Assembly: GCF_004118375.1 (NCBI RefSeq)
Contig: NZ_SDHX01000002.1
Location: 1,105,001 to 1,169,000, forward strand
Source of the DNA: Oleiharenicola lentus
Lineage (GTDB): Bacteria; Verrucomicrobiota; Verrucomicrobiia; Opitutales; Opitutaceae
Length of the DNA: 64,000 nt
Direction: 5' to 3'
The notes beneath the pieces are model-generated. The model was not told where the DNA came from. It worked only from the letters and a program-made list of their open reading frames with translations, and searched no databases. A program made the translations under genes and the position numbers. How positions within the stretch are numbered: position 1 is the first letter of the stretch; the number at the start of each line of letters is the position of its first letter. This document shows positions 33,106 through 59,823 of this stretch, piece after piece.

Positions 33106-33872
33106 AAGCGGAGGGGTTGGGCACCGGCCAAATCGCCGGCAGGTAACGCCAACAACGTTGTCCGCCCCACGGCTCCTGCAAGTCGTTATGCGGTGATTCC
33201 GTAGAAAATCCGGCACGCGTGCCTGTGACTTCCGCTATCCTCACTCCACTCTCCCCCGATCCTAACGCGAACCGGAGTAACCACGAAAAACACGAAGCAC
33301 ACGAAAGGATCAGATTGTTAAACGCGGAGCCCGCAGAGCGCGCGGAGGGCCATGTTCCCGCACGGTCGTTCAGATGCATGGAGGGCCGGTCTCCGCACCG
33401 GCCGTTCTGGAATGAAGCATCGAACCATGAACCACGAAAAACACGAATCACACGAAAGGATCAGATTTTTAAACGCGGAGGACGCAGAGAGCGCGGAGGG
33501 CGCGAGTCCCTGCACATCGTCCTGCCCGAACCGGTCCGCAGAGACGGGACCCTCCGCCCTATTCCTTTTCGTGTGTTTGGTGTGTTTCGTGGTTTCCTAT
33601 GTATTGGTCACTCCGCGCCCTTCGCGCCCTCCGCGTTTCAAAGGTGTGGTTCATTCAAAAATGCTGGGTGGCCAATTTCCCCGTGCGAACCAAACTTCGA
33701 CCAGGGACATAGGACCATAGACCAAGGACTACAGACCACAGACCACTGACCTCTGACCTCTGACTACTTCCAACCACCGTCTCCCGTCCATTCCGCCTCA
33801 AGCCTCCCTTCTCCCTTCTCCTGTCTCCCGCCTCCCGGCCTCCCTTCCCCCTTCTCCCTCCTCCCTTCTCCC
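33106..33872. repeat. Repeat-rich intergenic region
   Basis: 767 nt between the divergent beta-galactosidase and qor genes. It holds two direct copies of a unit reading CCACGAAAAACACGAA...CACACGAAAGGATCAGATT...AACGCGGAG (about 33279-33350 and 33429-33505), an inverted copy (about 33565-33640), one GTGCGGAGACCGG palindrome (33379-33404), and from about 33700 a CTCTGACC/CTCC polypyrimidine tract running up to the qor ATG. No plausible gene was seen. Confidence 0.65.
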
Positions 33873-34838
33873 ATGAATACCATCCGCATCGCCGTCCACG
33901 GCGGACCCGAGGTTCTGCAACTCACCGATCTGCCCGTGCCCACGCCCAAGCCGGGCGAGACGCTCGTGCGCGTGACGACCGCGGGCCTAAACTTCATGGA
34001 CCTCTACCAGCGGAGCGGCGTCATGCCGATGGCGCTGCCCTTCACCGCCGGCATCGAGGGCCTCGGGGTGGTCGAGCAATCCGACGGCGCGCTCGCGCCC
34101 GGCATGCGCGTGATGTGGCCCTCGCACCCAGGCGCGTTTGCGGAGTTTGCCTGCGTGCCGACGTGGAAGCTCATCCCCGTGCCCGCCGGCCTCGACGACC
34201 AGACGGCGGTCGCCGCCTGCCTGCAGGGACTCACCGTGCAGTTCCTGACCGAGAGCACCTACGTCGTGAAACGCGATGACGACGTGCTCGTCCACGCCGG
34301 CGCGGGCGGTGTCGGCCAGCTGCTGATCCAGGTGCTCAAGCACAAGGGCGCGCGCGTCTTCACGACTGTGTCCACCGAGGCCAAGGCCGCCCTTGCCCGC
34401 GCCGCCGGGGCCGACGTGGTGATCCGCTACACCGACGAGGACTTTGTCGCCGTCGTGCGCGAGCACACGCGCGGCCGGGGCGTGCAGGTCGCCTACGATT
34501 CCGTCGGCCTCACGACGCACGCCGGCAGCCTCTCGCTCGTGCGCCCGCTCGGCACGCTCGTGCTCTTCGGCCAGTCGAGCGGCGTGGTGCCCCCGATCGA
34601 TCCGCTGCTCCTGATGCGGCAGGGCTCGATCTTCCTCACCCGCCCCACCCTGATCCACCACATTGCCGACGCCCCGGCGGTGCAGGCCCGTTCCGCCCGC
34701 CTCCTCGAATGGCTCCAGACCGGCGTCCTCCGCCCCTCGATCGGCGGCGTCTATCCCCTCGCCGAAGTCGCCCGCGCCCACCTCGACCTCGCCAGTCGCC
34801 GCACCACCGGCAAGCTGCTGATCAAAATCCGCGACTAA
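33873..34838 (+). CDS. qor: NADPH:quinone oxidoreductase (zinc-free MDR family)
   Basis: 321-residue cytoplasmic medium-chain reductase of the quinone oxidoreductase type. It has a GroES-like N-domain (VTTAGLNFMDLYQRSGVMP, typical of Qor) and a Rossmann nucleotide-binding domain with VHAGAGGVGQLLIQVLKHKGARVFTT at about residues 140-165. ATG 33873 is preceded by about 150 nt of polypyrimidine sequence without a Shine-Dalgarno. The last 21 codons (HLDLASRRTTGKLLIKIRD) recur twice downstream (35072-35135 and 38122-38184). Confidence 0.93.
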   Translation: MNTIRIAVHGGPEVLQLTDLPVPTPKPGETLVRVTTAGLNFMDLYQRSGVMPMALPFTAGIEGLGVVEQSDGALAPGMRVMWPSHPGAFAEFACVPTWKLIPVPAGLDDQTAVAACLQGLTVQFLTESTYVVKRDDDVLVHAGAGGVGQLLIQVLKHKGARVFTTVSTEAKAALARAAGADVVIRYTDEDFVAVVREHTRGRGVQVAYDSVGLTTHAGSLSLVRPLGTLVLFGQSSGVVPPIDPLLLMRQGSIFLTRPTLIHHIADAPAVQARSARLLEWLQTGVLRPSIGGVYPLAEVARAHLDLASRRTTGKLLIKIRD

Positions 34839-34840
34839 TT

Positions 34841-35135
34841 CCCGTAGCCGCGCTAGAGTCCGCGAAAGCGTGGTTCGCTGCAGAACGACGACAAAGGACC
34901 AAGGACTGCTGTTCGCAGACCACAGCCCTCGGACCTCTGATTTCTGTCGTCTGCCGTCTTCCCCCTATCGTTCGGTTTCAGGTTTCAGGTCTCAGGTTTC
35001 AGGTTAGGCCGCCTCCGATCTTCGGCCTCCAGCCTCCCTCCTCCCGCCTCCGTTCTCCCTTCTCCCTCCTCCGCCCACCTCGACCTCGCCTCCCGCCGCA
35101 CCTCCGGCAAGCTGCTGATCCGGATCGCGGAGTGA
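34841..35135. repeat. Left direct repeat carrying a qor 3'-end copy
   Basis: Order: REP-like head (GTAGCCGCGCTAGAGTCCGC, from 34844), GACCAAGGACTGC/CTCTGATTTCTG tract, TTCGGTTTCAGGTTTCAGGT, CTCC-rich tract, then 35072-35135 encoding AHLDLASRRTSGKLLIRIAE and a stop. The same order and long identical stretches recur at 37770-38184, so the two bracket hipBA and the DUF4926/DUF6883 pair. Confidence 0.78.
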
Positions 35136-35210
35136 CTTCATTCCCTATTTTACGTCCGACATATCAGACGCTAATTGACATAATGTCAGATATAGCTGAC
35201 GTTATGCCTT
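35136..35210 (+). promoter_or_regulatory. hipBA promoter/operator region
   Basis: An AT-rich patch begins directly after the qor 3'-end copy. It contains TGACATAATGTCA (35176-35188, a 5-3-5 palindrome), an overlapping GTCAG/CTGAC inverted repeat (35185-35200), and a half-site GACATATCAGAC (about 35158-35169). TTGACA at 35175-35180 is a good -35 candidate. These are likely HipB operators; inferred from symmetry and position. Confidence 0.6.
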
Positions 35211-35525
35211 GTGAGCTCCTCCCCCTCCCTGCCGCTTCCCGCCGCCCACGCCCTGCGCAAGCTGGGTCGGGAGCTCGCTTTGGCCCGGCGGAAGCGCGGC
35301 ATCTCGACCGACGATATGGCGGCCCGCCTCTTCGTGAGTCGGGACACACTCTGGCGGATGGAACGCGGCGATCCCAAGGTTGCCACTGGCACGCTGGCGA
35401 CCGCAGCCTTCATCCTCCAACTTCATGACCGGCTCGCCAATCTGGCCACGCCGGGCGATGACACCCTGGGCCTGAACCTCGACGAGCAGCGCCTGCCGAA
35501 GCGCATCCGGCGTCCGCAGACATGA
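35211..35525 (+). CDS. hipB: HipB-type XRE-family antitoxin
   Basis: 104 residues from GTG 35211. A Cro/C1 helix-turn-helix spans about residues 15-60 (LGRELALARRKRGISTDDMAARLFVSRDTLWRMERGDPKV). The C-terminal tail is short and basic (LPKRIRRPQT). It overlaps hipA by 4 nt (ATGA). HipB proteins neutralise HipA and repress their own promoter, and palindromes fitting an operator lie just upstream. A slightly later start is possible. Confidence 0.85.
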   Translation: MSSSPSLPLPAAHALRKLGRELALARRKRGISTDDMAARLFVSRDTLWRMERGDPKVATGTLATAAFILQLHDRLANLATPGDDTLGLNLDEQRLPKRIRRPQT

Positions 35526-36745
35526 GCCTGGAGGTGCATATCGACTGGCAGGGCGCAACCCACCGCGTGGGGCGTCTGCACACCGCGGAGCGCAGCCCGG
35601 CGGTAACCTTCGAGTATGCCCGCGAGTGGCTGGCTCGCGATGGCGCCTTCTCCATCGACCCCACCGGCTTGCCCCTGGGCCCGAGTCCGATTCATGGAGC
35701 CGCGCTGTTTGGAGCGATGCAGGACTGCGGTCCCGACCGTTGGGGTCGGATCCTGATCGAGCGCGCGGTCCGCAAGCACGTCCTCGACCGCAAGCCTTAC
35801 CGCGAGATCGACTACGTCATCGCGCTCGACGACACCGCCCGGATTGGAGCCCTGCGGTTCCGCACCGAACCCACCGGTCCTTTCCTGGCCGCGACGACCG
35901 GCAAGCTGCCACCCCTTGTGAGTCTGGCCGCCCTGCTCCGGGCCGCCGACGCCATCCATGGTGAAACTGAAACCGCCGCCGACCTGCGCTTTCTCCTCGG
36001 CGCCGGCTCGCCCCTCGGCGGCGCCCGTCCGAAGGCGGCCGTCCTGCTCGCCGATGGACAGCTCGCGATGGCCAAATTCCCCAAGCCCGACGACGTGCGG
36101 GACATCGCCGCCGGCGAGGTCCTCGCCCTGCACCTGGCCCGGCAGGCCGGAATCAATGTGGCGGAATCCCGACTGGCCAAAGCCGGGACACGCAGCGTGT
36201 CGGTCATCACGCGCTTCGACCGCATGCGCGGACAACGTCTGCCCTTTCTCTCCGCGAACAGTCTGCTCGGGTTGTCACCCGGCGAGGCCGGCGCCTACAC
36301 TCTCCTCGCCGACGGCATCCGTCAGTTTGGCGACGATGTGGCGGGTGACCTGCGCGAACTCTGGCGGCGGCTCGTGTTTTCCCTCCTCGCGAGCAACTAC
36401 GACGACCATTTACGCAACCACGGCTTCCTGATGCGCACGCCGGGCAAGTGGTCGCTCTCTCCCGCCTACGACCTGAATCCCGTTCCCGAGATCGAACGCT
36501 CCCAGCTGCCCAAGACGGCCATCTCGGAAGACAACGCCGAATCTAGCATCCAAGCCGCCCTGGAGGTCGCGCCCCGCTTTGGCCTCAAACCCACGGCCGC
36601 CAAGGTCATCCTGCGTGAGGCCTATGCTGCGGTTGCTGATTGGCGACAGGCCGCGAAGCGACTGCGCCTCCCCGCCCGCACCCTCGCCGCCTACGCCACG
36701 GCCTTCGAGAATCCGCTGATGACAGAAGCCGAAAAACTCCGCTGA
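35522..36745 (+). CDS. hipA: HipA-type Ser/Thr kinase toxin
   Basis: 407 residues, close to the canonical full-length HipA. The N-subdomain (residues about 1-100, VGRLHTAERSPAVTFEY...) is fused to the kinase body. Visible motifs are the phosphate-binding loop LGGARPKAA near residue 160, the catalytic loop NYDDHLRNHGF near 296, and the metal-binding SPAYDLNP near 316. Characterised HipA phosphorylates glutamyl-tRNA synthetase. All key residues look intact, so it should be active. Paired with hipB in a unit bracketed by direct repeats carrying qor ends. Confidence 0.93.
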   Translation: MSLEVHIDWQGATHRVGRLHTAERSPAVTFEYAREWLARDGAFSIDPTGLPLGPSPIHGAALFGAMQDCGPDRWGRILIERAVRKHVLDRKPYREIDYVIALDDTARIGALRFRTEPTGPFLAATTGKLPPLVSLAALLRAADAIHGETETAADLRFLLGAGSPLGGARPKAAVLLADGQLAMAKFPKPDDVRDIAAGEVLALHLARQAGINVAESRLAKAGTRSVSVITRFDRMRGQRLPFLSANSLLGLSPGEAGAYTLLADGIRQFGDDVAGDLRELWRRLVFSLLASNYDDHLRNHGFLMRTPGKWSLSPAYDLNPVPEIERSQLPKTAISEDNAESSIQAALEVAPRFGLKPTAAKVILREAYAAVADWRQAAKRLRLPARTLAAYATAFENPLMTEAEKLR

Positions 36746-37071
36746 ACTCCGCCTGCCGACCCCGGCTCGGCCCAATCTTTCTCGTTCTCTTAATCTTTCT
36801 CTTTCTCCCTGCCTTCCCCGCCGGTGGAAAATCCCCTGTTGAAGCCGGGACCAGGGACAACGGACTACCGACCACGGACCACAGACCCCTGACATCCGCC
36901 CTCCGACCTCTGACCTCCGACATCTGCCGTTCGGTCTCAAGTCTCAGGTTTCAGGTCAGGCCGCCTTCCGACCTCTGACCTCTGATCTCTGACATCTGAC
37001 ATCTGTCCTCCGGTCTCCCTGCCTCTCGCCCTTCCGCCGCCGCGCGGCGTCTGACCCCCGGGAGGTGAGGC
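36746..37071. repeat. Low-complexity polypyrimidine region
   Basis: 326 nt of CTTTCTCGTTCTCTTAATCT, ACCACGGACCACAGAC, ACCTCTGACCTCTGATC and TCTCAGGTTTCAGGT units between hipA and the converging DUF4926 gene. No gene, promoter or terminator was identified in it. Confidence 0.65.
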
Positions 37072-37323
37072 TCAGGCTGCCGTGGTGCGCGAACGCACCG
37101 CCAGAACTTCGTCGTGGCGCAGGGCCTCCAGCGAGGACTCGGGCACCGTGATCACGGCCACGGTCTTGCCCGTGGCACTGAACACCTCCAGTGAACAGCC
37201 CGGCTCGCCACCCGCCTGCGGTGCGGGATGGTGGTCCACCACCGTGGCCACATCGCCACGGCGGATGCCTTCCGCCGGAACATCGACGGCCAGGGCCACG
37301 CGGCTGTAGAGCGGAAACTTCAT
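37072..37323 (-). CDS. DUF4926 domain protein
   Basis: 83 residues (KFPLYSRVALAVDVPAEGIRRGDVATVVDHH...EVFSATGKTVAVITVPESSLEALRHDEVLAVR), matching the short beta-rich DUF4926 family of unknown function. Its ATG overlaps the stop of the DUF6883 gene (ATGA, 37320-37323). The DUF6883-DUF4926 order occurs as a small two-gene unit in other genomes (recollection, not checked). It lies inside the direct-repeat-bracketed segment with hipBA, so it may be another mobile addiction-like pair; that is inference. Confidence 0.75.
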   Translation of the reverse strand: MKFPLYSRVALAVDVPAEGIRRGDVATVVDHHPAPQAGGEPGCSLEVFSATGKTVAVITVPESSLEALRHDEVLAVRSRTTAA

Positions 37324-37643
37324 CGATCGGAATATAGGGTGATAAACTTGGTCACGCCAGTCGCTTTTTCCGTCATCCACACGGAAAGCACGGACAAAGC
37401 CCGTCCGTTGGGACCAGTCAAACGGCCACGGATGATATAGCGCCAGCCATAGCGATCCTCCCCCGCATGGACCGCCGCCAAGGGCAGCAATTGCATACGG
37501 ATGTCCTGCTCCAGCCGGTTCGCATCCCGCACGGTGTATCCTGCCAGAGCCAGAAATCTGGATTTGTCGTGCTCGTCCCGCGGGCGGAGCAGATAGTCGG
37601 TAATTTTCTCGGGCGCAATCCGCGCATCCGCAGGCAATAGCAT
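37320..37643 (-). CDS. DUF6883 domain protein
   Basis: 107 residues from ATG 37643 (LLPADARIAPEKITDYLLRPRDEHDKSRFLALAGYT...WRYIIRGRLTGPNGRALSVLSVWM), matching the DUF6883 family of small proteins often found in toxin-like or mobile contexts. An in-frame start at 37712 would add 23 residues with no family similarity. Coupled to DUF4926 by ATGA. No catalytic residues are known to me. Confidence 0.72.
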   Translation of the reverse strand: MLLPADARIAPEKITDYLLRPRDEHDKSRFLALAGYTVRDANRLEQDIRMQLLPLAAVHAGEDRYGWRYIIRGRLTGPNGRALSVLSVWMTEKATGVTKFITLYSDR

Positions 37644-37769
37644 GGCCAGGACGAAATGTGTCTGCACCGCAAAGACGGCGGCGTGCGTCGGCCCGCAACG
37701 GAGCAAAGCCACCGGTCGCGCCGTGCCAAGACCAAAGCCGTTTTCGACCCGCGTCGGACAAAGACGTCT

Positions 37770-38184
37770 GCCGTAGCCGCGCTTGAGTCCGCGAAAGCGT
37801 GGCCCGCTGCAGATCGACGACGAGGGACAAGGGACGAAAGACCACTGACTACAGACCTCCGACCTCTGACTTCTGAAGTCTGCCGTCGTCCCCCGACCGT
37901 TCGGTTTCAGGTTTCAGGTCTCAGGTTTCAGGTTAGGCCACCTCCGTTGTCCCTTCTCCGTTCTCCCTCCCGCCTCCGGTCTCCGCTCTCCCGCCGCCCG
38001 CTTCCTCTCCCTCCCGCCTCCGGTCTTCGCTCTCCCGCCGCCCGCTTCCTCTCCCTCCCGCCTCCGGTTTTCGGCCTCCCGCCTCCCTCCTCCCGCCTCC
38101 GTTCTCCCTTCTCCCTCCTCCCGCCCACCTCGACCTCGCCTCTCGCCGCACCACTGGCAAGCTGCTGATCCGAATCGGGAGTGA
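37770..38184. repeat. Right direct repeat carrying a qor 3'-end copy
   Basis: Same module order as 34841-35135: REP-like head GTAGCCGCGCTTGAGTCCGC (37773), GGACAAGGGACGAAAGACC/CTCTGACTTCTG tract, TTCGGTTTCAGGTTTCAGGT, an expanded CTCC tract with internal tandem units (about 37965-38085), then 38122-38184 encoding HLDLASRRTTGKLLIRI. One nucleotide is missing near the end relative to the left copy. Confidence 0.78.
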
Positions 38185-38432: not shown

Positions 38433-40823
38433 ATGATCGTCTATCTCGCCAAAAAGCACGAATTTCTAGATGACGTCGACTCGAACAGAATCGAGGAGCG
38501 AATCCAAGCCGAGTTTCGCCGCACACACAATCACTCCGTAGGCGCCTCGGAAAAAGCCTCGTGGAAGAACTCCCTCGGCTTCATGCAGCGAATTCTTGCT
38601 GATGAAGAAATTCCACACGACTCTGGAGTCGCGATTGAATTGAGCGTCCCTCTTTCTGCGAAACGAATTGATTTCGTTCTTACCGGCACAAGCCGCGAGA
38701 AGCGTCAGACCGCAATTATCATTGAGTTGAAGCAGTGGACCGAGGCGAAGCCCACTCAGAAAGACGCTATTGTCAGGACCTATTTGGGCGGAGCTGAGGT
38801 TGAGACGTCGCATCCTTCCTATCAGGCTTGGTCCTACGCGGCATTATTGGAGGACTATAGCGAAACTGTCCGCACCCAAAGGATATCCCTCAAGCCTTGC
38901 GCCTATTTGCATAATTGCGCCGACGGCAGCACGATCAACAACCCCTTCTACCGCGAGCACACCGACAAGGCTCCCGCCTTTCTGCAAGCCGACGCGGCCA
39001 AGCTTCGTGCGTTCATCAAGGAACACGTTAAACACGGGGATTCCGGCAAAGTTATCTATCAGATTCGCGACGGAAAGATCAGCCCATCAAAAAACCTGGC
39101 CGATTCCCTGGTCTCACTTTTACAGGGCAACCGCGAATTCTTGATGATCGACGACCAGAAGCTGGTCTACGAAACCGCACTCCAACTGGCAGGCATCGCC
39201 ACGCCCAAGCAGAAGCAGGTGTTAATCGTGGAAGGCGGACCCGGAACCGGAAAGTCTGTCGTCGCGGTCAACCTGCTTGTGGCACTAACCGCACGCAAGA
39301 TGCTGACTCAGTATGTTACTAAAAATGCAGCTCCTCGCGGCGTCTACGAGAGCCGGCTAACGGGGGCATTCAAGAAATCGCACATCTCCAACCTCTTTGT
39401 TGGTTCCGGTGGATTCACCGAGACCCCGCCCAATACATTTGGGGCTTTGGTAGTCGATGAAGCTCATCGGCTAAACGAAAAATCGGGCCTTTTTATGAAC
39501 TTGGGCGAGAATCAGGTTAAAGAGATCATTCAAGCGGCTTGTTTCTCGGTCTTCTTCTTGGATGAAAACCAACGCGTGACATTGAAAGACATCGGGAGCG
39601 TCTCCGAAATCATGCGTTGGGCCACTGCAACCGGCGCGAAGGTTTCCCGACTAAATCTTGAGTCCCAGTTCAGGTGCAACGGCTCAGACGGGTATTTGGC
39701 CTGGGTCGACAACACCCTGCAGGTCAAAAAAAACGCGAACCCCACCTTGGAGGGCATCGACTACGATTTCGCGGTTTGCGATTCCCCCAACGAGCTCCGC
39801 GAGCGAATCCTCCAAAAGAACGCTGGGCGCAATAAATCCAGAATGGTTGCGGGTTACTGCTGGGATTGGAAGAGCAAGACCGACGGGAAAAGCCCTGATA
39901 TCGAGTTTCCGGAGCATGGGTTCTCGGCCCGCTGGAATCTCACGGCAGACGGTCCGCTGTGGATTATTAAGCCGGAAACGGTCACTGAGATTGGCTGCAT
40001 TCACACATGCCAGGGGTTGGAGCTGGAGTATGTCGGCGTTATCATCGGCCCCGATCTCGTAGTTCGTGATGGCCGCATCAAGACCGACCCGGCCAAAAGA
40101 TCCGGCCAGGACTCTTCGATCAAAGGCTTCAAGAAACGCCTATCTGAAAACCGAGAAGCGGCGGAGGCCGCGACGGATGAAATCATCAAAAATACCTATC
40201 GCACACTGATGACGCGCGGACAGCACGGCTGTTTTGTTTACTCAGCCGATCCTGAAACCAACGCATACCTGAAGGCCATGGCCTCGCGGAAGCGTTCCAT
40301 TGCCACTGTCGAGCCAACCGCGTATCCGGGCCTGCCTTTGCGCATATTGGATGGGGCAGCCGCGAAGCCTTTTATCAATGCCGTCCCCCTCTACGATTTG
40401 CAGGTCGCCGCCGGTGCCTTTAGTCTGGAACAGTCGGTAGGTGACTGCGCGTGGGTGGAATTGCCCGACGCCTTCACTCCAAGAAAAGACCTTTTCGTCA
40501 CCCGGGTAGTCGGCGAATCCATGAATCGCCGGATACCCAATGGTTCTTGGTGTTTGTTCAAACGCACACCAGCCGGAAGTCGCGACGGCAAGGTCGTCTT
40601 GGTCGAGCTACTTGACCGCCAAGATCCGGAAAGCGGCGGCCGTTACACCGTTAAAGTATACCGCAGCCAAAAACAGCCGACTGAAGACTCCTGGGAGCAC
40701 ACCAAGATTATCCTTAAACCTGACTCAACCAACGCCGGTTTTAACGACATCGTTTTGGAACCGAGTGAAACCGAGAGTTTCAAGACCATTGGCGAACTGG
40801 TCGCTGTTCTCGGTAAAGACTAA
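38433..40823 (+). CDS. DUF2075 helicase with N-terminal nuclease-like and C-terminal LexA/S24 peptidase domains
   Basis: 796 residues. Residues about 60-110 look like a PD-(D/E)xK nuclease core (AKRIDFVLTG...AIIIELKQW). A DUF2075/Schlafen-type P-loop helicase follows, with Walker A GGPGTGKSVVA near 269, Walker B LVVDEAHR near 340, LDENQR, and ECIHTCQGLELE-like motif V/VI segments (IHTCQGLELEYVGVI, MTRGQHG). From about 670 a LexA/UmuD-like S24 domain has GESMNRRIPNG (Ser near 692) and a candidate catalytic Lys in YTVKVYRS (near 738). Helicase, nuclease and self-cleaving regulatory domains in one chain suggest an inducible defence effector; this is inference. Its base composition is clearly poorer in GC than the flanks. 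A MazG-like gene starts 5 nt after it. Confidence 0.82.
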   Translation: MIVYLAKKHEFLDDVDSNRIEERIQAEFRRTHNHSVGASEKASWKNSLGFMQRILADEEIPHDSGVAIELSVPLSAKRIDFVLTGTSREKRQTAIIIELKQWTEAKPTQKDAIVRTYLGGAEVETSHPSYQAWSYAALLEDYSETVRTQRISLKPCAYLHNCADGSTINNPFYREHTDKAPAFLQADAAKLRAFIKEHVKHGDSGKVIYQIRDGKISPSKNLADSLVSLLQGNREFLMIDDQKLVYETALQLAGIATPKQKQVLIVEGGPGTGKSVVAVNLLVALTARKMLTQYVTKNAAPRGVYESRLTGAFKKSHISNLFVGSGGFTETPPNTFGALVVDEAHRLNEKSGLFMNLGENQVKEIIQAACFSVFFLDENQRVTLKDIGSVSEIMRWATATGAKVSRLNLESQFRCNGSDGYLAWVDNTLQVKKNANPTLEGIDYDFAVCDSPNELRERILQKNAGRNKSRMVAGYCWDWKSKTDGKSPDIEFPEHGFSARWNLTADGPLWIIKPETVTEIGCIHTCQGLELEYVGVIIGPDLVVRDGRIKTDPAKRSGQDSSIKGFKKRLSENREAAEAATDEIIKNTYRTLMTRGQHGCFVYSADPETNAYLKAMASRKRSIATVEPTAYPGLPLRILDGAAAKPFINAVPLYDLQVAAGAFSLEQSVGDCAWVELPDAFTPRKDLFVTRVVGESMNRRIPNGSWCLFKRTPAGSRDGKVVLVELLDRQDPESGGRYTVKVYRSQKQPTEDSWEHTKIILKPDSTNAGFNDIVLEPSETESFKTIGELVAVLGKD

Positions 40824-40828
40824 GACTC

Positions 40829-41200
40829 ATGACTATGACGGACGACATCACCACATTGGCCCAACTCAAGGAAGCCACGGCCAAATTTGCGCGCGAACGG
40901 GACTGGGAACAGTTTCATGCCCCTAAAAACCTTAGCATGGCCATAGCTGCCGAGGTTGGTGAACTCATGGAGCATTTTCTTTGGGTCTCTGCCGACGAGT
41001 CATCCACTCTGTGCTTGAACAAAGACAAACGGGGCAAGATCGAAGAGGAATTAGCGGATATCATTATGTTTTCCCTGCAGTTTGCCAACATGGCCAAGAT
41101 CGATGTTGCGTCGGCCATTTCCGCAAAGATCGTCAAAAACGCAGCGAAGTATCCTGTTTCAAAGGCGAAAGGACGTTCGGAGAAATATACTGAACTATGA
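40829..41200 (+). CDS. MazG-like nucleotide pyrophosphohydrolase
   Basis: 123 residues, all-alpha NTP pyrophosphatase of the MazG/RS21-C6 type. Metal-binding acidic pairs are visible in AAEVGELMEHF and EEELADIIMF. Such enzymes hydrolyse (d)NTPs to NMPs; depletion of nucleotides is a plausible antiphage action. Only 5 nt separate it from the DUF2075 helicase, with which it shares lower GC, so the two form one operon. Confidence 0.88.
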   Translation: MTMTDDITTLAQLKEATAKFARERDWEQFHAPKNLSMAIAAEVGELMEHFLWVSADESSTLCLNKDKRGKIEEELADIIMFSLQFANMAKIDVASAISAKIVKNAAKYPVSKAKGRSEKYTEL

Positions 41201-41284
41201 TTGTAACCGCACCCAAGCTGACCAATTAGTCCCGACCGAAGGTTTGCTCACGGTAGCAAGTAACAAACCCCGATCTTGCGAGCC

Positions 41285-42388
41285 ATGCCTATCCAACACG
41301 CCCTCTGGAAGATCGGAACCCAGCCGACGCCGATCAGTCTCGGGAAACTCGCCAGCGAGCAGGCGCTGGAGGACATGATTGTCCGCGAGACAGGCATTCT
41401 GTCCGCCGAGTGGATGCTCATCGGACGGCAGGAGCAGACTGGCTTCGGCGGGCGTATCGACCTGCTCGCCATCGCGCCCGACGGTTCACTCGTCCTCATC
41501 GAACTCAAACGCAACCGGACGCCGCGGGAAATCGTGGCCCAGGCGCTCGACTACGCGGCGTGGGTCGAAAAGCTGACCGCCGACCGGATCGCCCAGATCT
41601 ACCAACGCTTTTCCAACGGCGACAGTCTGGATGCGGCGTTCCAGAAGCGCTTCGGCACCAAGCTGGACGAGGAGACCCTTAACGAGTCCCACCAGATTGT
41701 CCTCGTGGCCGCCGAACTCGACGACGCCACCGAGCGCATCATCCAATACCTCAACGACCGCGACATCGCGATCAACGTCCTCTTCTTCCAAGTCTTCCAG
41801 CACGGCGGCGACCTCCTCCTTAGCCGCGCCTGGCTGATCGACCCGGGCCAGACTCAGGCCAACGTCACCACGACCACCAAGCGCTCCGGTGAAAAGGAGC
41901 CTTGGAATGGAGAATACTACGTTTCCTTCGGCACGGGCGACTCCCGCACGTGGGAAGACGCCCGGAAGCATGGTTTCATCAGCGCCGGCGGCGGCAGTTG
42001 GTATACCCAGACGCTCAAGCTGCTCTCCCCCGGCGACCGGGTTTGGGTGAAGGATCCCGGCGTCGGTTACCTCGGCGTCGGTCGCGTGCTTGAGCCGGTG
42101 GTAGCAGTGAAGGACTTCAAGGCGCCTACCCCATCCGGGGAAAAGTCCGCCTTGGACGTGCTCTCCACCGCGGCCCGTCTGCGGCAAAGCGCCGATGACC
42201 CGGAAAAGGCGGAGCACTTTGTCCGGGTGCAGTGGCTCGACACCGTGCCCGAATCCAAGGCCGTCAAAGAGCTCGGCCTGTTCGGCAACCAGAACACCGT
42301 CTGCCAGCCCACGACACCCAAGTGGCGCCACACCGTCGATCGCCTGAAGCAGCATTTCCCCAAGTGGAACAAGGAACCTAAGGCATGA
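41285..42388 (+). CDS. DUF91/NucS-like endonuclease family protein
   Basis: 367 residues from ATG 41285. Residues about 55-95 form a PD-(D/E)xK site: GFGGRIDLLAIAPDGSLVLIELKRNRTPREIVAQALDY (Asp, Glu-x-Lys and following Gln). The remainder is a C-terminal domain (YYVSFGTGDSRTWEDARKHGFISAGGG...LLSPGDRVWVKDPGVGYLGVGRV) resembling a modified-base or EVE/SH3-like reader. Overlaps the DUF6979 gene by 4 nt (ATGA). Probably a DNA-targeting nuclease; target unknown. Confidence 0.78.
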   Translation: MPIQHALWKIGTQPTPISLGKLASEQALEDMIVRETGILSAEWMLIGRQEQTGFGGRIDLLAIAPDGSLVLIELKRNRTPREIVAQALDYAAWVEKLTADRIAQIYQRFSNGDSLDAAFQKRFGTKLDEETLNESHQIVLVAAELDDATERIIQYLNDRDIAINVLFFQVFQHGGDLLLSRAWLIDPGQTQANVTTTTKRSGEKEPWNGEYYVSFGTGDSRTWEDARKHGFISAGGGSWYTQTLKLLSPGDRVWVKDPGVGYLGVGRVLEPVVAVKDFKAPTPSGEKSALDVLSTAARLRQSADDPEKAEHFVRVQWLDTVPESKAVKELGLFGNQNTVCQPTTPKWRHTVDRLKQHFPKWNKEPKA

Positions 42389-44616: not shown

Positions 44617-44634
44617 CGCGGGTTAAATTGAACT

Positions 44635-44727
44635 GTAGCCGCGTTGGACCCCGCGGCCGCGGGAGACAACGTGGTCGTCCCCTGACCACGCTTTCGTCCC
44701 GCGGACGCGTGACTCAAGCGCGGCTAC
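44635..44727. repeat. REP element (copy 1)
   Basis: GTAGCCGCGTTGGA ... ACAACGTGGTCGTCC ... GACCACGCTTTCGTCCCGCG ... TCAAGCGCGGCTAC. An 80-90 nt imperfect palindrome; related copies are listed around 49.0-50.0 and at 59.7 kb. Confidence 0.8.
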
Positions 44728-44851
44728 AGGTAAACCAAGCCGAAGCCGGCTTCGAGGCAGGGGACCCGCGGGGAATCAACGCCCCCCGCCCAGCCCAGAA
44801 AATCCTTGCGCGGCCTAAGGCAGATCGTAGGTTGCGCGACTTCCGTTGAGG

Positions 44852-44928
44852 GTCCCCATCGTCTAGCCCGGTCAGGACACCACCCTTTCACGGTGAGAAC
44901 CGGGGTTCGAATCCCCGTGGGGACGCCA
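44852..44928 (+). tRNA. tRNA-Glu (UUC)
   Basis: 77 nt including an encoded CCA. The acceptor arms GTCCCCA/TGGGGAC pair, the T arm is CGGGGTTCGAATCCCCG and the anticodon loop CTTTCAC places TTC at positions 34-36. Close in sequence to other bacterial tRNA-Glu genes. Its last 22 nt (with flanking ACG) recur exactly at 45079-45100 and 45254-45275. Confidence 0.97.
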
Positions 44929-44935
44929 ACGAAGA

Positions 44936-44959
44936 AACCCGCCGCAAGGCGGGTTTTTT
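44936..44959 (+). terminator. Rho-independent terminator after tRNA-Glu
   Basis: Stem AACCCGCC / GGCGGGTT with GCAA tetraloop, followed by a T-run. Confidence 0.9.
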
Positions 44960-45076
44960 CGTGGTCGGACCACGGGTGATGAGAACCCTTGGGTTCGACG
45001 ACCGGAGCGAAGCGGAGGGAGAAGGGGCGCGGCCCAGCCGCGAGTGCGCAGCACCGGTGCCGGTTCGGCGGCACCG

Positions 45077-45142
45077 CCAATCCCCGTGGGGACGCCAACG
45101 GTAAAAGCCTCTCAACCTCCAAGTTGAGGGGCTTTTCCGTAA
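45077..45142 (+). repeat. tRNA-Glu 3'-end copy with terminator (copy 1)
   Basis: AATCCCCGTGGGGACGCCAA (start of a 22-nt exact copy of the tRNA 3' end, 45079-45100), followed by the stem-loop AAAAGCCTCTCAACC...GGTTGAGGGGCTTTT-like terminator at 45103-45136. An almost identical unit lies at 45252-45317. Confidence 0.88.
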
Positions 45143-45251
45143 GCGCTTGGCGAGCATCGCCAAGTTCGAACCCCGGAGGGGTTTGTGGAGGCCGTAGGCC
45201 GGAACGGACGAGGCCCAGCCTCGGTCGCGAAGCGATGCCGCCCTCGCGGCA

Positions 45252-45317
45252 CCAATCCCCGTGGGGACGCCAACGGTAAAAGCCTCTCAACCTCCAGGTT
45301 GAGGGGCTTTTCCGTTT
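45252..45317 (+). repeat. tRNA-Glu 3'-end copy with terminator (copy 2)
   Basis: The same 22 nt of tRNA 3' end (45254-45275) and terminator hairpin (45278-45311) as the copy at 45077. They differ by one base in the hairpin loop (CTCCAAG versus CTCCAGG). The hipT stop codon lies about 55 nt beyond. Confidence 0.88.
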
Positions 45318-45371
45318 GGCGCCTGAAGCTAGGCTTCAGGTTCGAACCCTTGGGTTCGACGTAGCAACGGT

Positions 45372-46301
45372 TCAGGCGAGCCCCAGGCGCTCGCGGCGCT
45401 CGCCGAGAAGGGCCAGATAACGGTCCTTCATTTCCGCCGACAGGAAGCTGTTCATGATCCGGTCCGGCCAGGCGGAGCTGGCGGCGGCGAAACGTTTCCT
45501 GGCCTGGTCAACCTGGGCCGCGGTGAGACCCAGGCGTTCGCCGGCGAGGTAACCCCAGAACAGCTTCGCCTGCAGGTTGGACTTCCTGCCCTGCAGGGGC
45601 AGGGCGAGTTCCTCCCGGTTCTTGGGATTGGAAATCGTCGAATTGAGCAGGTCGTAGGCGGGGGCGAGCTCCACCTTGTCATCGCGGGTGATGAGCGACC
45701 AGTTCTTCAGGTGCATGTCCTCGTTGCCGGTGAGAAAGGCAAAGAGGAGTCGGTCGAGAAACTTCCGGCGCTCCAGCACGGGGAAGGTGCAAAAACGATC
45801 GATCACCTCGATCAGGTGCTCGGTGCTGGAGTCGTATTTGGTGTCACGACTCGCGCCGCTTAACTGCGCGAAATCCTCCACCGGCAACTTGTCCCAACCC
45901 TGGCGGTCGAAGCGCCGGATAAAGTACGAGCGCGTGGCATCGGCGTTGAGCAGGAGACCATGAACCGGAACCTCGATGCCGACCGTTTCGGCCAGCGACA
46001 TGGTGAGAGCCTCGTTCTCGGGGAGCTCCGGATAGATCATGTGCGGCGGCTTGACGATGAAGCGCCCGCCGTGGTCGACCACGGCCATCCGCCCTTCAGG
46101 GACCTTGAGCACGGTGCTGACCTTGGGCTGCATGCCCTGAATGGACATTTTCGACGCCCGCGCGGCCGCCTCGGCAATGAGCTGCTCGCGCGTGTGGGGA
46201 AGAGGGGTCAGGGCGGCGAGCCGCCGATCGAGCAGGCGCAGCCCGGCTGGTGAATACGGACCGGGCCCGGCCCAGGGCTCGCTGGTGATCAGACACCTCA
46301 T
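45372..46301 (-). CDS. hipT: HipT-like kinase toxin (HipA kinase domain)
   Basis: 309 residues: a HipA-type kinase lacking the N-subdomain 1, which is encoded separately upstream. Landmarks are the Gly-rich loop ASKMSIQGMQPKVS near residue 53 (the Ser-containing loop autophosphorylated in HipT), catalytic loop TGNEDMHLKNW near 195, and the metal-binding APAYDLLNST near 215. Overlaps hipS by 4 nt (ATGA, 46298-46301). In the E. coli HipBST system HipT phosphorylates tryptophanyl-tRNA synthetase; the substrate here is unknown. Confidence 0.88.
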   Translation of the reverse strand: MRCLITSEPWAGPGPYSPAGLRLLDRRLAALTPLPHTREQLIAEAAARASKMSIQGMQPKVSTVLKVPEGRMAVVDHGGRFIVKPPHMIYPELPENEALTMSLAETVGIEVPVHGLLLNADATRSYFIRRFDRQGWDKLPVEDFAQLSGASRDTKYDSSTEHLIEVIDRFCTFPVLERRKFLDRLLFAFLTGNEDMHLKNWSLITRDDKVELAPAYDLLNSTISNPKNREELALPLQGRKSNLQAKLFWGYLAGERLGLTAAQVDQARKRFAAASSAWPDRIMNSFLSAEMKDRYLALLGERRERLGLA

Positions 46302-46606
46302 TCGGCTGCCTCAATCCTGAGTGAACCGACCACGTCGCGGCCGACGGCGAGCAACTGACCAAAGAGGTCGCCCTTATCGAGCTTGCGCTGCCTGAGGAGG
46401 GCATCGAGCTGCCCGCCCTCGGGCAACAATCCCTCGAAGGGGGCGGGAAAGCCCTCGAATTCCCACACCCGGGTCTTCGTTGGCATGGTGAGGGAGACGG
46501 GTTCCCCCTGGTATCCCTCGTCGTAGGTGAAACGAAACTTGCCGGAGTCGAGTGACACGAGCAGTCCGGCGAGCTGACGTTTTTGGTAGATGCGGGCCGT
46601 TCTCAT
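46298..46606 (-). CDS. hipS: HipS-like protein (HipA N-terminal subdomain)
   Basis: 102 residues corresponding to the N-subdomain 1 of HipA (ARIYQKRQLAGLLVSLDSGKFRFTYDEGYQGEPVSLTMP...FPAPFEGLLPEGGQLDALLRQ). In HipBST systems this small protein, rather than HipB, is the antitoxin. Overlaps both hipB and hipT by 4 nt, so all three are coupled. Confidence 0.87.
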   Translation of the reverse strand: MRTARIYQKRQLAGLLVSLDSGKFRFTYDEGYQGEPVSLTMPTKTRVWEFEGFPAPFEGLLPEGGQLDALLRQRKLDKGDLFGQLLAVGRDVVGSLRIEAAE

Positions 46607-46899
46607 ACCGGTGTGCGCGCCTCCGCCACTGCTGATGAATCAGGTGATGATGATGCCGATGCCGTCGGTGACGATGAAGCGGATGCCATGGCCTCACGCT
46701 CAAGCAGGGGGCTGCGCCATTCAGCCGTGATGTTGAGCACCCTGAAGATCTTTAGCAGGGTATCCCATTGCACAGACTCCTTGCCGTTCTCGATATCCCA
46801 GATGACCGTCTTGCCCACTCCAGCCAAACTCGCGAGCCCAGCCTGAGAAAGGCCTGCCTTCTTGCGGTGCTTCTGGATGAGTTCTGCGACCGAGGTCAT
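46603..46899 (-). CDS. hipB: HipB-like XRE-family regulator of the HipBST module
   Basis: 98 residues from ATG 46899 with a Cro/C1 HTH (LIQKHRKKAGLSQAGLASLAGVGKTVIWDIENGKESV, about residues 6-45) and a Ser/Ala-rich C-terminal tail. The start is chosen because an operator-like palindrome begins 3 nt upstream and the frame before it is AT-rich promoter DNA. The frame is also open to 46944. First gene of a hipB-hipS-hipT operon. Confidence 0.87.
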   Translation of the reverse strand: MTSVAELIQKHRKKAGLSQAGLASLAGVGKTVIWDIENGKESVQWDTLLKIFRVLNITAEWRSPLLEREAMASASSSPTASASSSPDSSAVAEARTPV

Positions 46900-46901
46900 A
46901 T

Positions 46902-47060
46902 TACCGTTATGGCAGTATAATCGCACATAAAATGCTAAACTCAATATAGAAAGATATGATTTGTAGATAATAATACCGCTTAGGCGGTAATATTGGATTA
47001 ATTCTGAACTATCCTGAACAAAGCGCAGAAATCATGACTAAATTTACTGCCTTAGCGGCA
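46902..47060 (-). promoter_or_regulatory. hipBST promoter with three operator-like palindromes
   Basis: Three 16-nt sites share the pattern TACYGYYTWDGCRGYA: 46902-46917 (TACCGTTATGGCAGTA), 46974-46989 (TACCGCTTAGGCGGTA, near perfect) and 47045-47060 (TACTGCCTTAGCGGCA). On the minus strand a candidate -35 TTGAGT (46944-46939) and -10 TATACT (46919-46914) overlap the first site. The region is strikingly AT-rich for this genome. Autoregulation by HipB is inferred. Confidence 0.78.
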
Positions 47061-47091
47061 TATTTCGTCGGTTTTCTATGAACTAAGGAAT

Positions 47092-47535
47092 GCTCACGTA
47101 GCAGAGCAAAGATCCTTTGCAGCCCCATGTCATCGGAAGCCACAGGGGGGCAGCTACCACACGGGACCTACCAGCCCGCGCGGAGCGCCGGCTCCACCCC
47201 CGATCCAAGCTCGCCCTCCGCGATCTCTGCGGTCTCCGCGTTTAGAAATCCGATTCCTTCGTGTCTTGGTGTCTTTGTGGTGCCATCGGCTCGATGCCTT
47301 GATCGCCAAACGGCCGGTGCGGAGACCGGCCCTCCAAGAAAATCGAATCGGCCGCGCGGGAGCTTGGCCCTCCGAGTGTGAATCGCTGGATCCTTCTCCC
47401 GCTCCGCGGGATCAGGACGCCGATCGGATTCCGATCGGCGCTTTACGCGGAAAACGGGCGCGGGCTTGGGCTACTGTCTGAATCGTGCGGTGGTTGTCGG
47501 CACCGGGTCGCTCCCCCGACCCTCCGCCCCACCCC
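47092..47535. other. Intergenic region with repeat debris
   Basis: Holds a reverse relative of the CACGAA/CGCGGAG unit seen at 33.3 kb (about 47205-47285), a GTGCGGAGACCGG palindrome (47311-47335) and a GATCAGGACGCCGATCGGAT-type repeat before the MFS start. No gene or clear promoter was identified. Confidence 0.5.
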
Positions 47536-48987
47536 ATGGTCCCCTCCCCGTCCGCCTCCGCGGCTGCGCCGATCGTCGCCCGCGCGGGCACGCTCCACTA
47601 CACCCGCGGCAACCTCTTCGCCATCTTCGCCTGGCTCCTCGGCGCGGAGGTCGTGTTCGTGCTCATCGACATCATCGAGCCGCAGGTCCTGCCCGTCCTC
47701 CTGAAACTCCACGGCGCGACCGACACGCAGATCGCGATCATCATCGGCTCGGTCAACGCGGTGCTCCAGCTCCTCATCATGCCACCGCTGGGCTACTGGA
47801 GCGACCGGCTGCGCACGCGCTGGGGCCGCCGCATCCCGGTCCTGTTCTGGGTCACTCCGTTCGTCACGCTCTTCCTCGCGCTGACGCCGTTCTCGCCGGA
47901 AATCGCGGCCTGGCTCGCCGGCATTCCCGTCCTCAACCAGTGGCTGCACCTCCTGCCGCTGGCGCCGGTGATCTCCGTCTTCGCTGTGCTGGTGATCCTG
48001 TACCGCACGGTCCAGACGGCGACCAACGTCTGTTTCTTCGGCCTGCTGCGCGACGTGGTGCCCGACACGCACATGGGCCGCTTTCTCGCCCTGTTCCGGG
48101 TCTTCGGCGCGGCGGGCACGGCCATCGTGAGCTACTGGCTGCTCGGGCTCACCGAGACGCACAGCAAACACATCTTCATCGGCATCGCGGTGCTCAATCT
48201 CGGGTGCTTCTCCCTGCTCTGCTGGTTCGTGCGCGAGGGCGAGTATCCGCCGGTGGAGCCCAACGCCGCCGGGGCGGGCGCCGGCCGCGCGGCGCGCCTC
48301 TGGGCCGCGACCAAGACTTTTTGCCGCGAATCCTACCGCCACCCGGTCTACCTGTGGTTCTACTTCGTGCGCGTCTGCCTCTACGGCGCCCTGCTCGGGC
48401 TGTCGCACTTCACCATCTTCTTCCCCCAGCACGAGCTGGGCATGGACCTGATGAAGATCGGCGCCTACCGCACCTACCCGCTCCTGGTCTGGATCGTGAT
48501 CGCCTTCCCCGTGGGCTGGCTGGTGGACCGCAAGGGCGCCGTCGCGGTGCTGAAATGGGGCCTCATCATGATCACCCTCGGCTACGTGCTGACCTTCTTC
48601 CTCGCCACCGGGCCGCTCAGCTTCCTGGCGGGCAACATGATCTTCGGCGTGGCGTTCTGGGTCGTGATGATGGCCCAGCTCAAGCTGACCGCGGAGGTCT
48701 TCCACCCGCAGCGCTACAGCCAGCTGGCCGGCGCCAACACCATCGTGCAGTCGCTGATGATTGCCGTCGTCATCAGCCCCGTCTGCGGCTGGATCCTCGA
48801 CGCCCTCAAGGGCTGGTCGCACACCCTCACGCTGCCCGGCGCGGGCGAGGTTGTGATCGGGCCCTACCGGCTCGTTTACCTGATGATGGGCGCGTGCTAC
48901 CTGCTGGCGCTCTTCGGCCTGAACCGCGTCGGCCACCACATGCGCCAGCACACCGGCCCGGATGGGAAGTATCTGGCGCCGTTGTGA
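47536..48987 (+). CDS. MFS transporter (SLC45/GPH-like sugar transporter)
   Basis: 483 residues with about 12 transmembrane helices. The cytoplasmic loop GYWSDRLRTRWGRRIPVLFW matches the SDRxRxRxGRRRP motif of SLC45/GPH-type sugar carriers. ATG 47536 is taken because it leaves a short hydrophilic N-terminus before FAIFAWLLGAEVVFVLIDII. It stands alone, with REP elements downstream. Substrate unknown, likely an oligosaccharide or glycoside. Confidence 0.88.
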   Translation: MVPSPSASAAAPIVARAGTLHYTRGNLFAIFAWLLGAEVVFVLIDIIEPQVLPVLLKLHGATDTQIAIIIGSVNAVLQLLIMPPLGYWSDRLRTRWGRRIPVLFWVTPFVTLFLALTPFSPEIAAWLAGIPVLNQWLHLLPLAPVISVFAVLVILYRTVQTATNVCFFGLLRDVVPDTHMGRFLALFRVFGAAGTAIVSYWLLGLTETHSKHIFIGIAVLNLGCFSLLCWFVREGEYPPVEPNAAGAGAGRAARLWAATKTFCRESYRHPVYLWFYFVRVCLYGALLGLSHFTIFFPQHELGMDLMKIGAYRTYPLLVWIVIAFPVGWLVDRKGAVAVLKWGLIMITLGYVLTFFLATGPLSFLAGNMIFGVAFWVVMMAQLKLTAEVFHPQRYSQLAGANTIVQSLMIAVVISPVCGWILDALKGWSHTLTLPGAGEVVIGPYRLVYLMMGACYLLALFGLNRVGHHMRQHTGPDGKYLAPL

Positions 48988-49001
48988 AGATTGCTGGGAA
49001 T

Positions 49002-49085
49002 GTAGCCGCGTTGGAGCGCAGCGACAACGTGGTTCATCCCCGACCACGCTTTCGTCCCGCCAACGCGGGACTCAAGCGCGGCTAC
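49002..49085. repeat. REP element (copy 2)
   Basis: GTAGCCGCGTTGGAGCGCAG ... GACCACGCTTTCGTCCCGCC ... TCAAGCGCGGCTAC, directly after the MFS gene. Confidence 0.85.
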
Positions 49086-49096
49086 CTGAGCGGGAA

Positions 49097-49721
49097 GTAG
49101 CCGCCTTGGAGCGCAGCGACAAGGTGGTCAGAAGCCCGGTCAGTCCGGCAAAGCGTTCCAATAATTCCACCACGCATCACGAAATGTTGGCTGACGGGGA
49201 TCCAGACCGGGCAAAGCGCGCACCAGAGAACCGGTGAAAGGCCACTCAGACGGTGTGGAGACAAGCCCGGCACGCACCGGATTCTCGCTGATATAATGGG
49301 CCAGCGCCGTGAAGGCGTCGGCCCCGGATTCATTGGTCCGCAAGACATGGTCGTAAGCCTGCTTTTGCAGACTGAAGGGATGGAGCTCCGCATTGAGGCG
49401 GCGTCGGACGGCGCGGCTCCAGAGGGTCTGGTCACTGGCTGGGTTCATGCCCGCGGAAAGCACATGAATGTGGTCCGGCATCAGGCAATAGGCGGGAACC
49501 GCCACGGCATAGCGTTCCGGATTAATCTCGAGGATTGAGCGAAACGCGGTGTGGAATTTCGGAGTCAACCAGCCGGTGCGCCGGCTGGCGATGCCCATGG
49601 TCCAGTGAATGAACCCGCGACCGCGATAGGCGTCTGGCAACAGGCGCGGAAGATGCCGTTGGGGAGCGAGGCTCACACCTGGATCGAGCCACGCTTTCGC
49701 CTTCGGCTCAAGCGCGGCTAC
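49097..49721 (-). mobile_element. RAYT unit: transposase gene flanked by REP halves
   Basis: The left flank (49097-49131) is the first half of the REP palindrome (GTAGCCGCCTTGGAGCGCAG...), and the right flank (49686-49721) is the second half (GCCACGCTTTCGCC...GCGCGGCTAC). The transposase gene fills the space between the halves, as expected for a REP-associated tyrosine transposase unit. Confidence 0.82.
49140..49676 (-). CDS. rayT: REP-associated tyrosine transposase (RAYT, IS200-like Y1 fold)
   Basis: 178 residues from GTG 49676. It carries the HUH-type metal motif in YCLMPDHIHVL (near residue 66), a candidate nucleophilic Tyr in QAYDHVLRTNE, and the diagnostic YISENPVRAGLV segment. Such proteins cut single-stranded REP DNA and are thought to spread REP elements. 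REP copies occur on both sides and elsewhere in the window. GTG 49676 is the nearest plausible start; the frame upstream runs into REP sequence. Confidence 0.87.
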   Translation of the reverse strand: MSLAPQRHLPRLLPDAYRGRGFIHWTMGIASRRTGWLTPKFHTAFRSILEINPERYAVAVPAYCLMPDHIHVLSAGMNPASDQTLWSRAVRRRLNAELHPFSLQKQAYDHVLRTNESGADAFTALAHYISENPVRAGLVSTPSEWPFTGSLVRALPGLDPRQPTFRDAWWNYWNALPD

Positions 49722-49737
49722 ACAGGAAAAGCGGAAG

Positions 49738-49812
49738 GTAGCCGCGTTGGAGCGTAGCGACAACGTGGTCGTCTCCGGACCACGCTTTCGCCCTTGGCTC
49801 AAGCGCGGCTAC
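49738..49812. repeat. REP element (copy 3)
   Basis: GTAGCCGCGTTGGAGCGTAG ... GGACCACGCTTTCGCCCTTG ... AAGCGCGGCTAC. Confidence 0.85.
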
Positions 49813-49825
49813 ACCTGAACGCGAA

Positions 49826-49963
49826 GTAGCCGCCTTGGAGCGAAGTCCCTCGACAGGCTCGGGACCTTGAGCTTGTCGAAACGGCGACAATGTGGTCGGG
49901 AACGTGAAACGCATCTGAGGGCCACGCTTTCGTCCCGCAGACGCGGGACTCAAACGCGGCTAC
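49826..49963. repeat. REP element (copy 4) with a nested second repeat
   Basis: A REP palindrome is interrupted at 49846-49880 by an inverted element (TCGACAGGCTCGGGACC / TTGAGCTTGTCGA) related to the one inside the sialidase-like gene at 3224-3242. The outer REP continues to GCGGCTAC at 49963. Confidence 0.8.
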
Positions 49964-49977
49964 ACCAAGTCCTCCAT

Positions 49978-59577: not shown

Positions 59578-59704
59578 TTCAACCAGGGTTTCAATTTTCA
59601 GTTGCTGCTTCTTAGCTTTGCGGGCGCACCAAGAAAGTCCCGCTGCTCCCGCCTCGAACCACACCCCGATCGCAGAATTAACGCGACGCGGTTTGCATTG
59701 AAAT

Positions 59705-59787
59705 GTAGCCGCGTTGGAGCACAGCAACAACGTGGTCGTCCCTGACCACGCTTTCGTCCCGCGGACGCGGGACTCAGGCGCGGCTAC
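59705..59787. repeat. REP element (copy 5)
   Basis: GTAGCCGCGTTGGAGCACAG ... GACCACGCTTTCGTCCCGCG ... TCAGGCGCGGCTAC, in the convergent gap between the MOSC and pckG genes, about 10 kb from the RAYT. Confidence 0.85.
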
Positions 59788-59823
59788 ATCTCGGTTGAAT
59801 CTGCTGTCTCTGCGCCCGCCGCC

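Follow-up and report, generated by a model that had tools for sequence, protein, structure and literature searches.

A two-gene unit was examined in a 64,000-nt stretch of Oleiharenicola lentus DNA (NZ_SDHX01000002.1, 1,105,001–1,169,000, forward strand; hereafter the window, to which all coordinates refer). Both genes lie on the + strand. The first (38433..40823), present as a single copy in the genome, is an open reading frame (ORF) of 796 amino acids that encodes a nuclease–SLFN-g3 helicase–S24 fusion, an assignment supported by the ORF call, Pfam, and full-length relatives in several phyla. Beginning 5 nt past its end, the second (40829..41200) encodes a MazG-like nucleotide pyrophosphohydrolase of 123 amino acids (PF12643, E = 4.4e-16; MazG, PF03819, 3.8e-5, over the cut-off).

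For the N-terminal domain of the long protein (residues 1–236; 38433..39140), which carries D80, E98, and K100, model searching returned PD-(D/E)xK-type proteins as the best matches, at a middling level only. The helicase domain follows (residues 261–606; 39213..40250; PF09848, E = 2.2e-96); its family name, SLFN-g3_helicase, we take to be the successor of DUF2075. Walker A (GGPGTGK, residues 268–274; 39234..39254) and the Asp-Glu of Walker B (residues 342–343; 39456..39461) are each conserved in at least 97% of 81 sequences. The C-terminal part (residues 632–796; 40326..40820) is a LexA-type S24 self-cleavage module, matched by Pfam Peptidase_S24 over residues 652–728 (E = 1.7e-7). Its predicted scissile bond, Ala660–Gly661 (...PLYDLQVAA/GAF, the slash marking the bond; 40410..40415), aligns within one residue of the Ala-Gly of LexA; of 121 modules, 114 have A-G or C-G in the same register. 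The predicted nucleophile, Ser696 (40518..40520), is Ser in all 121, and the predicted general base, Lys741 (40653..40655), is Lys in 119. These counts, like those over 104 helicase loci given below, include repeats (L012/L172 and, among modules, L010/L148) and truncated copies. The three-part chain and apparent Ser/Lys dyad that an earlier sequence-only reading of this DNA had proposed are supported, with the nuclease fold standing on middling matches. Neither a helix-turn-helix family nor the Schlafen N-terminal RNase core was matched in Pfam (E = 0.1), and PADLOC 2023 gave no full-length system match, the best being a partial one to PDC-S41 over residues 20–285.

Relatives were collected by a one-genome-per-species scan, in which the best 80 of 390 were kept (L002–L081), a set biased to close kin. 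Further loci brought the total to 106, of which 104 were kept once a duplicate and a short row had been dropped. Gene calling followed a longest-ORF rule. A MazG gene was found within 1 kb of the helicase at 87 of the 104 loci (66 upstream, 19 downstream, and 2 on the opposite strand), most commonly with a 4-nt overlap (31 of 87). The position of MazG requires 15 changes on the tree, so that the pair has been rearranged without being separated. The metal motifs of MazG are invariant (E42xxE45 in 86/86 and E74xxD77 in 87/87). Among the 17 loci lacking it, at least 2 are cut, one with a piece of MazG at the contig end (L065) and one beginning at a contig end (L069). Annotated records show the pair in the archaeon Halalkalicoccus as well, and in Priestia, where genes for an N-6 methylase and HsdS lie downstream of it. 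Against the pairing, no adjacent pyrophosphohydrolase is annotated at the Methanosphaera, Hymenobacter, and Streptomyces plasmid loci (the plasmid gene tables being incomplete), and at a Microcystis phage locus the MazG position holds a small unannotated ORF. Overall, the functional pairing with MazG supposed by the sequence-only reading is supported.

The S24 part is carried by the helicase at 84 of the 104 loci, with 19 scored without it and 1 cut. As 14 of these 19 retain MazG, S24 has the character of an add-on switch. No fewer than 11 changes in its presence are required on the tree (the cut row being left out), 4 to 5 of which are forced by starred branches. Relatives without S24 terminate near residue 620, close to the product expected from cleavage. 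In one relative scored S24-free (L070), the S24 sits in a separate frame. In the S24 module of L026:7995-10391, TTA replaces AAG and Arg replaces the catalytic Lys, the remaining domain being intact.

In a whole-protein search of the phylum (best two candidates per genome scored, so that counts are lower bounds), S24-only matches were seen within other long frames. An alignment of 28 modules was used to search 387 genomes of the phylum (best nine per genome scored; again lower bounds), giving 25 places at E ≤ 1.5e-29: 11 on this helicase, 11 on other long proteins, and 3 in short frames. Below these came a methyltransferase-HNH protein (L177, 5e-19), then matches no stronger than 5e-15, most of them in repressor-sized frames (75–380 amino acids), with two exceptions of 1090 (a PLD-ResIII helicase, L178) and 521 amino acids.

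All 11 of the other long hosts were scanned with Pfam, and 8 also with PADLOC. They comprise a type IV-like ResIII helicase (L125), AlwI (L131, E = 6.9e-94), HsdR (L128, PADLOC, 8.1e-264), HsdS (L132, 3.4e-23), two type III Res proteins (L134 and L135, 6.4e-254 and 7.6e-122), a ResIII/TnsA-like protein with both domains below Pfam cut-offs (L133), a DruE-like DEAD helicase with MZB (L136, 5.6e-111), an HNH_2 protein (L130), and two methyltransferase-HNH proteins (L129 and L142). Searching the family also yielded a HIT-ResIII helicase (L122) and a further two methyltransferase-HNH proteins, one scanned (L124) and one named by likeness to it (L123); judged by their domains, the methyltransferase-HNH proteins would be restriction enzymes. 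AlwI-S24 adjoins a D12 methylase and HsdS-S24 an N6 methylase, so both look like complete systems. As a control, 2 of 18 long native window proteins matched PADLOC at 1e-15, both to the CARF-beta-galactosidase model.

Two classes outside the phylum were searched with the best 12–13 candidates per genome scored, giving lower bounds. In Bacteroidia (the class of genome G571), the module was present at E ≤ 1e-15 in 24 of 295 genomes, 17 times on the helicase and 7 times on a PLD-ResIII-DUF3427-type helicase. All 16 newly fetched of the 17 helicase loci have MazG in the stretch; 6 of the 7 PLD-DUF3427 hosts were named by length, start, and tree, with only L156 (and L067) named by Pfam. In Gammaproteobacteria (the class of G555), it was found in 6 of 274 genomes: four times on the helicase, once on an HsdR-like protein (L173), and once cut at a contig end. 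The module is thus carried by many enzymes, among them type I, II, III, and IV-like restriction enzymes, methyltransferase-HNH proteins, and a DruE-like helicase. The S24 part is accordingly a portable module and not peculiar to the system described by the sequence-only reading.

Very probably the module has moved between hosts, as judged from a tree of 76 modules, built by a quick method in which long rows are unsure and with GIY-YIG scanned in L151 only. Three Bacteroides helicase modules (L051, L054, and L058) cluster with those of HsdR, HsdS, AlwI, and Res (starred group, 98), away from most other helicase modules, and 7 of 8 PLD-DUF3427 modules nest among GIY-type helicase modules (98). 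Labelling modules as belonging to this helicase or to other enzymes requires 5 changes, 4 of them forced by starred branches, and the PD-type label has 3 forced changes. Some further arrangements were observed. At L142 (G367 C1:1056000-1075000), ~1.4 kb separates the S24-bearing helicase gene from an S24-bearing methyltransferase-HNH gene, next to a cluster with DUF6361, PLD, and an SNF2 helicase. Diverged S24 domains lie internally, ahead of the last DUF3427 stretch, in the fusions L027:10526-14374 and L180:4427-7714 (both by Pfam) and L181:4688-7972 (by likeness). Short S24 frames with no effector (L126:7119-7937, L127:11974-12309, and L183:6819-7148) may be remnants or separate modules.

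That the S24 part serves only for dimerisation or docking, its cleavage being vestigial, seems improbable. The S24 part of LexA is described in excerpts of PMC8565304 as a domain for both autolysis and dimerisation, and one relative (L059) retains the domain without the A-G site. Against this, almost every one of the 121 modules, over about eleven host architectures, retains Ser, Lys, and the scissile pair, and in L026 site and Lys were lost together while the remaining domain was kept.

The occurrence of close kin of the module at or near the end of many unrelated restriction and defence enzymes suggests that a switch responding to DNA damage, in all likelihood one that turns the enzyme off, is built directly into such proteins by bacteria. 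For the window pair, we put at about an even chance that it is a horizontally acquired defence unit whose S24 tail self-cleaves on DNA damage and so removes the effector. The long protein would be a DNA-acting effector combining a PD-(D/E)xK nuclease with an SLFN-g3 helicase or translocase, and MazG would support it, probably via hydrolysis of (deoxy)nucleoside triphosphates. The intact enzyme would be active. When host DNA is damaged or under repair, RecA filaments on single-stranded DNA would dock the Ala660–Gly661 loop into the Ser696/Lys741 site, the chain would cut itself, and the freed effector, ending ...PLYDLQVAA-COOH like the N-terminal fragment of LexA (...GLPLVGRVAA ahead of its cut), would be taken by ClpXP. 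The enzyme would in this way be cleared for as long as the cell contains broken or unmodified DNA of its own, amounting to restriction alleviation inside the enzyme. Cleavage of LexA-like proteins exposes ClpXP signals according to parts of PMC10584840 and PMC5742171, the latter placing them next to the cut, and ClpXP removes HsdR after damage or entry according to passages of PMC12707154 and PMC4231737; restriction enzymes that generate their own degron would achieve the same result. RecA and ClpX are both encoded in the O. lentus genome.

We also incline, though not strongly, to a more general proposal, namely that a single LexA-derived autoprotease module has been passed between unrelated enzymes (types I to IV, Druantia-like, and Schlafen-helicase) as a layer of defence control, each enzyme itself sensing RecA filaments and destroying or switching itself without transcription or an adaptor.

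Several observations weigh against the off-switch proposal for the window pair. At the site, one relative (L059) has lost A-G with the dyad kept, L177 is without A/C-G, the second module of L027 has Arg for Lys, and in most modules the spacing between the site and the conserved Pro exceeds that of LexA by one residue; modules with C-G would leave ...AAC rather than ...AA ends. No other S24 protein over the cut-off, and hence no LexA, was found in the O. lentus genome, which makes SOS signalling there uncertain; the sole other S24-like frame (L185:1196-1720, on C1 of this genome) scored 22.2 bits, under the cut-off, and by its signal-like start looks secreted by eye. The surroundings of relatives were also considered, using 95 neighbour proteins of at least 170 amino acids (a size limit that leaves out MazG) drawn from 163 picked at helicase loci, with the first 25 families per list. 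Defence and housekeeping families were mixed, none recurring in more than 3 members among the families listed; a defence island as conserved context was accordingly rejected, enrichment of defence genes near helicase loci is not claimed, and the case for an island outside the window is weak.

The same anatomy fits the opposite polarity, in which S24 holds the effector inactive or dimerised until RecA filaments arising from phage attack or DNA damage cause self-cleavage and free an active nuclease–helicase, with MazG draining nucleotides, as an abortive-infection switch. As S24-free relatives end near residue 620, the enzyme probably still works once cleaved, and the MazG pairing suits growth arrest. 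We nevertheless regard this as rather unlikely, since AlwI (next to its methylase), HsdR, HsdS, and type III Res carry the module too, and such enzymes can block incoming DNA only if they are already working before any damage occurs; furthermore, the degrons that LexA-type cleavage is known to expose lie on the N-terminal fragment, as stated in sections of PMC10584840 and PMC5742171. Release or activation of the effector by self-cleavage, as put forward by the sequence-only reading, is therefore possible, but a damage-triggered off-switch explains a host range including AlwI and HsdR better. A probable defence role is supported; an S24 domain was matched, a nuclease fold was matched at a middling level, and most homologues lie beside MazG.

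Recent acquisition of the long gene is suggested by its GC content at third codon positions (GC3), 0.64, below the 0.88–0.95 of 16 of 18 long native window genes. Its distribution is patchy: of 200 genomes of the family, 8 gave strong matches, its own counted. One plasmid record, from Halomonas, covers at least 80% of the 796-residue query, and the same record alone was found when plasmids were searched with the S24 module; none of 5 matching phage records reaches this coverage, and a viral_contigs scan, sensitive to close relatives only, gave no relative. By its GC3 and patchy distribution the unit looks horizontally mobile, which would also fit a role in establishment, with slow, RecA-independent spontaneous self-cleavage keeping the enzyme low on entry into a new host with unprotected DNA. 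A delay of this kind is needed by several of the enzymes that carry the module, as they are restriction enzymes. We give this little credence: the site and LexA-like details of the fold, including likeness to RecA-bound forms, are strictly conserved, and no methylation that would protect the host is evident for the window pair.

Next to the unit lie a HipB-like/HipA pair (35211..36745, +; Pfam) and a NucS_C-type nuclease gene (41276..42388, +; PADLOC candidate PDC-S11, E = 6.9e-157), both neighbours rather than core. The latter was rejected as a member of the system, being found among the L002–L081 relatives only in L034 (25.6%), with a partial match in L050. The sequence-only reading had cited the GC drop and the HipBA and nuclease neighbours in favour of a defence island; the HEPN-like neighbour that it also named is unsupported, with no family over the cut-off. 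A second HipA-like kinase domain (45372–46301, −; PF07804, E = 5.3e-46) lies near tRNA-Glu at 44852. The 3′ end of an oxidoreductase gene (33873–34838; 34775–34829) recurs at 35071–35127 and 38121–38177, flanking a HipBA/DUF6883 segment immediately ahead of the fusion gene, in what looks like a trace of insertion at the end of the oxidoreductase gene. Many short imperfect intergenic repeats are common to distant spots of the window (33280–38180, 44617–49964, and 59687–59788). No clean empty site was seen among 10 same-genus genomes: the upstream gene at 33873 had no match at E = 1e-50 in any of them, and the right-flank gene at 47485 matched 3, with the flank rearranged in the best of these.

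Restriction and similar systems need silencing during repair of the cell's own DNA and on first arrival in a new cell. For EcoKI this is done by the host ClpXP, through a signal in the enzyme that was not found according to parts of PMC4231737; if the proposal is true, many unrelated systems would have their own solution in the form of a portable self-cleavage module, and immunity would be coupled directly to the response to DNA damage. Undescribed defence genes can, in addition, be sought by a simple sequence mark, a large enzyme with S24 at or near its C terminus. Among the matches listed in open-access literature, which holds few subscription journals or bioRxiv preprints, none linked DUF2075 to MazG, S24, or phage defence, and none placed an S24 or LexA-like peptidase on restriction or defence enzymes. 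S24 and LexA are absent from the text of PMC12707154, PMC12839542, PMC10853773, and PMC11090510, as are LexA, UmuD, and DUF2075 from that of PMC5512222. Self-cleaving S24 repressors are themselves known; the LexA-type module on restriction enzymes is not described in the papers searched.

Compared with known systems, the PADLOC candidates PDC-S41, AbiO, and Nhi match the N-terminal part or helicase core only partially, and none covers the S24 part. The PF09848 domain with intact Walker A and B is shared with SLFN-g3/DUF2075 helicases, whose name ties them to the group 3 Schlafens; no Schlafen RNase core was matched here, and the present proteins have instead a putative PD-(D/E)xK domain or GIY-YIG, a MazG partner, and the S24 tail. 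With Druantia DruE, type I–IV restriction enzymes, and PLD-DUF3427 helicases, some relatives of which carry it, only the S24 module is shared, and the effector folds differ. LexA, UmuD, and phage CI have the same S24 fold with its Ser-Lys dyad, the site here being A660-G661; their DNA-binding repressor domain is without a counterpart, and the module instead follows a nuclease–helicase or restriction enzyme. A functional parallel would be the ClpXP-dependent restriction alleviation of EcoKI, in which, as proposed here, damage to host DNA or its lack of modification leads to loss of the restriction motor-nuclease. There, according to passages of PMC4231737, the protease acts on HsdR during translocation, whereas here self-cleavage would make the signal inside the enzyme.
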